Assembly: GCF_000718015.1 (NCBI RefSeq)
Contig: NZ_JODY01000045.1
Span: 1-44,068, forward strand
Direction: 5' to 3'
From: Streptomyces catenulae
GTDB lineage: Bacteria > Actinomycetota > Actinomycetes > Streptomycetales > Streptomycetaceae
Length of the DNA: 44,068 bases
The notes below the pieces were generated by a model, which saw only the letters and a program-made list of their open reading frames with translations, searched no databases and was not told the origin of the DNA. Positions 199 through 318 of the stretch are shown one piece after another (the stretch's first letter is position 1; every line of letters begins with the position of its first letter). The position numbers were made by a program, and so were the translations under genes.

Positions 199-204
199 TA
201 GCTT
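199..204 (+). promoter_or_regulatory. Candidate -10 box of the trpL-trpS transcript
   Basis: TAGCTT fits the TANNNT pattern and lies 7 bases before the ATG of the leader peptide, which has no Shine-Dalgarno sequence. Transcription would then start at or next to that ATG, giving a leaderless leader peptide. No good -35 element was seen. The role is inferred from spacing only. Confidence 0.4.
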
Positions 205-211
205 GGCCGCC

Positions 212-253
212 ATGACCCCGCATGCGCACGTACAGCAGTGGTGGCTCGCCTGA
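212..253 (+). CDS. trpL: trp leader peptide with tandem Trp codons
   Basis: A 13-residue reading frame, MTPHAHVQQWWLA, with two consecutive TGG codons at 239-244 and a TGA stop at 251-253. It lies 147 bases upstream of the tryptophanyl-tRNA synthetase start and directly before mutually exclusive hairpins. This is the layout of a ribosome-mediated attenuator. When charged tRNA-Trp is scarce, a ribosome should stall on the two TGG codons and let the antiterminator form. The frame has no Shine-Dalgarno but has a TANNNT box 7 bases upstream, so it may be translated from the 5' end of the mRNA. From memory, the auxiliary TrpRS gene of S. coelicolor was shown to be controlled by this kind of attenuation. 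Confidence 0.85.
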   Translation: MTPHAHVQQWWLA

Positions 254-305
254 CGGCGGCCGACCACAGCGCATGCACGACCACGGCCGCCGCCTCGGCG
301 GCCGT
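238..305 (+). promoter_or_regulatory. trpS transcription attenuator (segments 1-4)
   Basis: Four segments can be drawn. Segment 1 (238-250, containing both Trp codons) pairs with segment 2 (255-267) around the loop 251-254, as GTGGT/ACCAC, GGC/GCC and GCC/GGC with small bulges. Segment 2 can instead pair with segment 3, CGGCGGCCG at 254-262 against CGGCCGCCG at 284-292, a perfect 9-bp antiterminator. Segment 3 can pair with segment 4, ACGGCCGCC at 283-291 against GGCGGCCGT at 297-305 with loop GCCTC, the terminator. Segments 2 and 4 share the core GGCGGCCG. The base pairing is seen directly; the switching mechanism is inferred from known trp attenuators. Confidence 0.85.
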
Positions 306-318
306 TCGCGTTTCTCCT
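283..318 (+). terminator. Attenuator terminator hairpin before trpS
   Basis: A perfect 9-bp stem (283-291 with 297-305) with a 5-base loop is followed by a T/C-rich tail, TTCGCGTTTCTCC. The poor U-run is usual for Streptomyces terminators. It competes with the antiterminator formed by 254-262 and 284-292. Confidence 0.75.

Follow-up and report, generated by a model that had tools for sequence, protein, structure and literature searches.

A probable leaderless tryptophan attenuator with a conserved long-range helix upstream of the auxiliary trpS gene of Streptomyces catenulae

Introduction

In Streptomyces lividans, the leader TrpL2 of the trpL2-trpS pair (SLIV_21112/SLIV_21110) is reported to be transcribed leaderless, as are trpL1, leuL1 and leuL2, and TAnnnT is given as the −10 consensus of this organism (PMC8079986). 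According to its title, the study of Vecchione and Sello (2010, J Bacteriol 192:3565) describes attenuation of the gene for an auxiliary, antibiotic-resistant tryptophanyl-tRNA synthetase (TrpRS) of S. coelicolor. An attenuator upstream of trpS2 of S. avermitilis was predicted by Seliverstov et al. in 2005 (PMC1262725), and leaderless cysteine attenuators of mycobacteria appear in the title of a cited paper.

Here, we analysed a stretch of 44,068 nucleotides from Streptomyces catenulae, referred to below as the window, which is contig C45 of a genome of 7.0 Mb in 90 contigs. The original prediction had placed a trp-type attenuator with a tandem-tryptophan (WW) leader peptide upstream of trpS in this stretch. 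This observation is real and was read correctly in its main points; the kind of switch is already known.

Results

The trpS gene, its ribosome site and the parts of the leader region described below lie on the forward strand. The trpS gene at 401–1396 encodes the auxiliary tryptophanyl-tRNA synthetase (TIGR00233, 290.8 bits against a cut-off of 176.75) and is preceded by the ribosome site AGGAGAGG, read directly at 388–395. The Trp codons of the leader are matched by a downstream gene of tryptophan metabolism. The S. catenulae genome contains two trpS copies that are 48% identical to each other, of which only the copy in the window possesses a Trp leader, as no W-containing ORF of 6–30 codons was found in the ~600 nt searched before the other copy. 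Five weak matches of the leader model elsewhere in the same genome were read, and four of them had no W-containing short ORF. The fifth (L186) has such an ORF only as a coincidence within a long reading frame, and none of the five resembles a second leader.

In both relatives whose upstream DNA was fetched, rRNA genes directed away from trpS are situated upstream of it: L092 shows 16S, 23S and 5S, and L093 shows parts of 23S and 5S. This adjacency is probably the reason why many contigs, including that of S. catenulae, end near trpS. Between trpS and the divergent rRNA operon, a conserved block resembling CAACTCGGAGAACACTAC is found at 131–153 of the window and also in L012 and others; in most relatives it is located ~66–83 nt 5′ of the leader start. 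Directly behind trpS, repeated units resembling CCCGTAGGGGA were seen by eye at 1430–1590.

A search for trpS in 392 genomes of the genus gave matches in 391, with other trpS copies counted in. Leaders were compared in a set of 90, consisting of the window, 29 loci returned by this search and 60 fetched stretches; since these were picked from high-scoring trpS rows, the counts hold for the closer orthologues. A second set of 81 leaders, which overlaps the first, joins the window with 80 loci from named records that the trpS search retained (79 titled Streptomyces, one Microtetraspora). Structures were compared over 53 dereplicated leaders.

The leader ORF at 212–253 encodes MTPHAHVQQWWLA, starting with ATG at 212, the inferred 5′ end of the transcript, and ending with TGA at 251–253. 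The predicted tandem TGG codons are indeed present at 239–244. All 90 leaders of the closer Streptomyces orthologues contain a W-containing leader ORF, starting with ATG in 75 and GTG in 15 cases. TGGTGG is found in 80 of them, and the other 10 carry a single Trp codon, with WR replacing WW as in S. lividans TrpL2 (L006, L031, L033, L048, L063, L066, L067, L073, L078 and L084).

The Trp codons and the next two codons form segment 1 (238–250), which pairs with segment 2 according to both the minimum free energy (MFE) fold, where the pairing lies within 238–250 and 255–267, and the consensus stem. Segment 2 CGGCGGCCG (254–262) is followed by segment 3 CGGCCGCCG (284–292) and segment 4 CGGCGGCCG (296–304), the latter being part of the 3:4 hairpin 283–305 that constitutes the putative terminator stem. 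The mutually exclusive 1:2, 2:3 and 3:4 pairings are thus all possible in the sequence, two of them (2:3 and 3:4) as perfect 9-mers, as anticipated, and the 3:4 stem extends to 10 bp. Their energies are −18.8 kcal/mol for 2:3 and −20.3 kcal/mol for 3:4. In 83 of the 90 leaders, the distance from the start of the first Trp codon to that of segment 2 (GGCGG) is exactly 16 nt.

RNA folding, which had been proposed as a check, was run on 212–318 and gave an MFE of −56.6 kcal/mol compared with −42.91 kcal/mol (sd 3.64) for 200 dinucleotide shuffles (z −3.76), a better fold than every single shuffle. In this fold, the 1:2 pairing is enclosed by a further helix, 220–227/269–276, and followed by the 3:4 hairpin. 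Leader alignment, another of the proposed checks, gave a divided answer on covariation, which is lacking in the nearly invariant segments 1–4 and present in the enclosing helix (P0). Among the 53 leaders, the 1:2 consensus stem consists of seven nearly invariant pairs and the 3:4 stem is practically invariant. The 2:3 pairing is kept in 416 of 423 cells. Because segments 1–4 hardly vary, the 2:3 and 3:4 pairings are supported by conservation and not by covariation of their own.

The region behind the terminator stem (306–325) contains a weak U tract followed by the pyrimidine tract TCTCCTCCCTCCC at 313–325. In the 90 leaders, the 8 nt past the stem hold 2–6 T, namely 2–3 in 31, 4 in 24 and 5–6 in 35 leaders. 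The description as a complete attenuator is slightly overstated, as the stem is strong but the U tract weak, and it overlooked the conserved P0 helix. The weak U tract and a canonical scan that found no terminator in 1–420 would fit a stop signal other than intrinsic termination at 3:4, either Rho-dependent termination or a masking of the trpS ribosome site by the tract 313–325. A pyrimidine pattern follows the stem in 79 of the 90 leaders, and in the MFE fold of 306–412 the tract pairs with the ribosome-site region (388–395). Against both, the 3:4 stem hardly changes over the 53 leaders and the 8 nt after it hold at least four T in 59 of 90, and pairing between tract and ribosome site was seen in one MFE fold, that of the window. 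We regard either of these as improbable in place of an intrinsic 3:4 terminator. The pyrimidine tract may serve as a second, translational layer. Folding the alignment of the leader tails gave no structure. A further G+C-rich stretch lies at ~330–360 of the window, between the pyrimidine tract and the ribosome site, and at the corresponding position in relatives. It is similar to segments 3 and 4 and, judged by eye, reads GCCGGCCG...CGGCGGYCC in many of the relatives.

The long-range helix P0 connects leader codons 3–6 (5′ arm GCATGCGC, 220–227) with the spacer between segments 2 and 3 (3′ arm GCGCATGC, 269–276). It is seen in the MFE fold, by covariation and in an alignment-free search. In the 53 leaders, seven of its eight pairs show changes on both sides. 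The cells of P0 are paired in 96.7% of cases compared with a mean of 90.0% after shuffling, and doubly changed cells number 51 against a mean of 18.8 in the shuffles; when the partners are slid by 1 to 3 columns, at most 71.4% of the cells remain paired. The alignment-free search recovered a helix of at least 7 bp in 88 of the 90 leaders, with 51 distinct arm pairs, and the comparison with shuffled spacers gave p ≤ 0.05 in 87. In some leaders (L035 and L053), P0 lies one base out of step with the reading frame, so that the peptide is not the conserved element.

In the second set of 81 leaders, 631 of 647 cells are paired, with 56 changes of pair state by parsimony on a trpS tree. Independent-pair tests of five P0 pairs on this tree had too little power, each being too small, and did not reach significance in any case; for pair 12-86, the opposite direction was slightly more frequent. 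P0 takes up bases 9–16 of the predicted transcript and is complete only once base 65 has been made. Bases 9–16 would be occupied by a ribosome that loads at a bare 5′ end, and P0 would likely close the start region and enforce termination by default. Participation in a polymerase pause hairpin is an equally possible role for P0. No description of such a helix in trp leaders was found in the literature covered, which consisted mostly of titles and the beginnings of abstracts and lay largely outside subscription papers.

The −10 element TAGCTT (TAnnnT) at 199–204 lies 7 nt 5′ of the leader ATG, and direct reading of the window revealed no ribosome site 5′ of 212, both as originally described. 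TAnnnT is present 6–8 nt 5′ of the leader start in all 90 leaders, where chance would account for 0.10 loci given a background of 6 TAnnnT in 15,928 positions. All 81 leaders of the second set likewise combine a W leader ORF with TAnnnT 6–8 nt upstream, and 78 of these contain WW. A single in-frame start candidate was available in 39 of the 90 leaders and several in 51, in which case the candidate fitting TAnnnT was taken, so that the TAnnnT counts in both sets are partly helped by this choice. The leaderless start, reported for one Streptomyces, thus appears from these sequences to be a fixed property of the trpS leaders compared.

Attenuation would also work if the transcript started further upstream and a conventional ribosome site served the leader ORF. 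In favour of this, the contig begins 211 bp 5′ of the leader ATG, which hides more distant promoters, most relatives have the conserved block ~66–83 nt 5′ of the leader, and SD-like 4-mers occur at −18 to −5 in 10 of the 90 leaders. This low number, the missing ribosome site in the window, the TAnnnT spacing common to all 90 leaders and the report that the orthologous S. lividans leader is leaderless (PMC8079986) speak for a start at or near position 212 and leave an upstream start very unlikely. A canonical promoter scan of 1–420 found nothing, and Rfam gave no matches in the window at the gathering score and none in 1–420 at E values up to 5. That a WW peptide and G+C-rich repeats merely coincide in high-GC DNA can be dismissed, since G+C-rich inverted repeats are indeed common in high-GC genomes but a chance origin is refuted by the conservation of the leader in all 90 and all 81 members of two overlapping sets, the TAnnnT counts and the covariation of P0, besides the folding z of −3.76.

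Upstream of the −10 element, the box TTCAAAC (166–172), whose first six bases end 27 nt 5′ of it, is a candidate site for the activator WblC/WhiB7. The pattern [TG]TCAA[ACT] is found 5′ of the −10 element in 65 of the 90 leaders, and in 59 it lies 26–27 nt from it. We take SCO3334 to be the auxiliary TrpRS gene and the counterpart of SLIV_21110. A published list of genes activated by WblC, given together with their paralogues, names SCO3334 first in the pair trpS/trpS2, and the same paper places the WblC motif GAAAWY 3 nt 5′ of the −35 element (PMC7157823). The TTCAAAC box agrees with this motif in part only. Judged by sequence, dual control by an activator and attenuation is plausible.

A covariance model of the leader matched 74 of 296 genomes of the class with E ≤ 0.01, 21 of them in the same genus and 53 in others. 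The 28 genomes of the same genus comprise 18 with strong matches (E of 4.3e-17 or better), 3 with weak matches (0.002–0.004) and 7 without a match. In five of these seven, the trpS search of 392 genomes gave no match better than those typical for the other copy (best E 1.6e-93 to 2.6e-97), and G713 was outside that search; G067 possesses a trpS of the window's type (77% identical) with no leader match at E 0.01.

Outside the genus, 32 matches (L207–L238) were read, and weaker matches, some of which will be due to chance, were left out. With leader starts picked among the listed candidates with the −10 element in view, the chosen start has TAnnnT 6–7 nt upstream in 25 of the 32 and CAnnnT in 6, and neither in L233. 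P0 is significant for only 10 of 22 distinct peptides in other families. Nine downstream proteins were tested, giving four trpS (L208, L213, L219 and L233) and two trpD (L207 and L211), while those of L215, L218 and L228 resemble anthranilate synthase component I at scores below the curated cut-offs; the remaining downstream proteins were judged by eye. Based on these sequences, the leaderless start is probably common to the related leaders found in other actinobacterial families. In such families, leaderless-looking Trp leaders also occur 5′ of trpD and TrpE-like genes (L207, L211, L215, L218 and L228).

Discussion

We are confident that 212–325 acts as a ribosome-mediated transcription attenuator of the auxiliary trpS, with a predicted leaderless start and a likely default closure by P0. 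Leaderless WW attenuation before trpS, as originally put forward, is the best reading of the sequence, and the leader very probably senses tryptophan shortage by ribosome stalling. The leader ORF, the Trp codons, the alternative pairings, the −10 spacing and the conservation of P0 were established by sequence and comparison, from which we infer the start site in S. catenulae, stalling, termination and the role of P0.

Transcription would start at the leader ATG (212) or within a base or two of it, and a ribosome would then have to load at the bare 5′ end. When tRNA-Trp is charged, the ribosome should reach the TGA at 251–253 so that its footprint covers segment 2 (254–262), whereupon segment 3 would pair with segment 4 and transcription would stop. 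When tRNA-Trp is uncharged, as a result of tryptophan shortage or a TrpRS inhibitor, the ribosome would stall on TGG-TGG and leave segment 2 free; the 2:3 pairing could then form before segment 4 is made, and trpS would be transcribed. If no ribosome loads, P0 (220–227/269–276) and the 1:2 pairing would close the start region and the terminator would form by default. P0 therefore gives a specific prediction of how a leaderless attenuator behaves when no ribosome loads.

Folding with a part of the RNA masked is consistent with this order of events. The two ribosome edges assumed follow from the ribosome footprint. An edge at 252, with the A site on the first TGG, lets 2:3 form while the RNA emerges to 292–296; an edge at 264, for a ribosome on the stop codon, masks segment 2, and 3:4 forms. 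When the RNA extends to 310, all cases tried have 3:4 as the minimum, including that of a stalled ribosome. Antitermination must consequently be kinetic.

Several observations weigh against an attenuator. The core switch lacks covariation, and its 3:4 minimum persists even with a stalled ribosome. In addition, ten of the 90 leaders manage with a single Trp codon, and the trpS of G067 has no leader match. The U tract is weak; in this respect the window resembles S. lividans TrpL2, for which a U-rich stretch is likewise stated to be missing (PMC8079986). With these points taken into account, the attenuator reading is retained at the strength given above. A bolder and rather doubtful extension would be that the actinobacterial trp leaders form a distinct class of gated leaderless attenuators, in which P0 leaves a single kinetic window for loading; once the polymerase had passed the spacer between segments 2 and 3, P0 would shut the start region and commit the transcript to termination.

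A leaderless mRNA driving attenuation had been considered a notable variant, a view that is not supported, because such attenuators, leaderless or nearly so, have been published for Corynebacterium and Sinorhizobium and, to judge from a title, for Mycobacterium. In ilvBNC of Corynebacterium glutamicum, the start site lies one nucleotide from the leader start codon, similar to the start predicted for the window, and the hairpin H1 is proposed to block leaderless initiation and to work as an anti-antiterminator, a role that we suggest likewise for P0; ilvBNC differs in its branched-chain amino-acid codons and in being another operon (PMC11857589). The attenuator RNA of trpL in Sinorhizobium meliloti has its 5′ end at the ATG of the leader ORF, as predicted for the window, but it belongs to another phylum, regulates trpE(G) and encodes a peptide that also acts in trans (PMC7298713). 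The attenuators predicted by Seliverstov et al. for trp operons and trpS2 of Streptomyces and Corynebacterium share double or triple UGG codons and G+C-rich terminators with the window; the word "leaderless" is absent from the main text of that paper, and its passages on these attenuators mention no P0 helix (PMC1262725).

The likeness to the auxiliary TrpRS gene of S. coelicolor holds for the features compared. The window carries one of two trpS genes, the leader peptides of L073 and L078, whose trpS is 79% identical to that of the window, have the very sequence of S. lividans TrpL2 (MMTRTCTQLWRAA), and the equivalence of the genes themselves is presumed. Ribosome-mediated transcriptional attenuation of the S. 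coelicolor gene is named in the title of Vecchione and Sello (2010), and by this title the gene resembles that of the window. Close agreement also exists with trpL2-trpS of S. lividans, which has in common with the window a 13-residue Trp leader, a leaderless start (predicted for the window), two hairpins and no U-rich stretch; TrpL2 contains a single Trp codon instead of the WW of S. catenulae, and the part of that account concerned with trpL2 describes no long-range helix (PMC8079986). What our analysis adds to this known kind of switch is the conserved P0 helix at the start of the leader.
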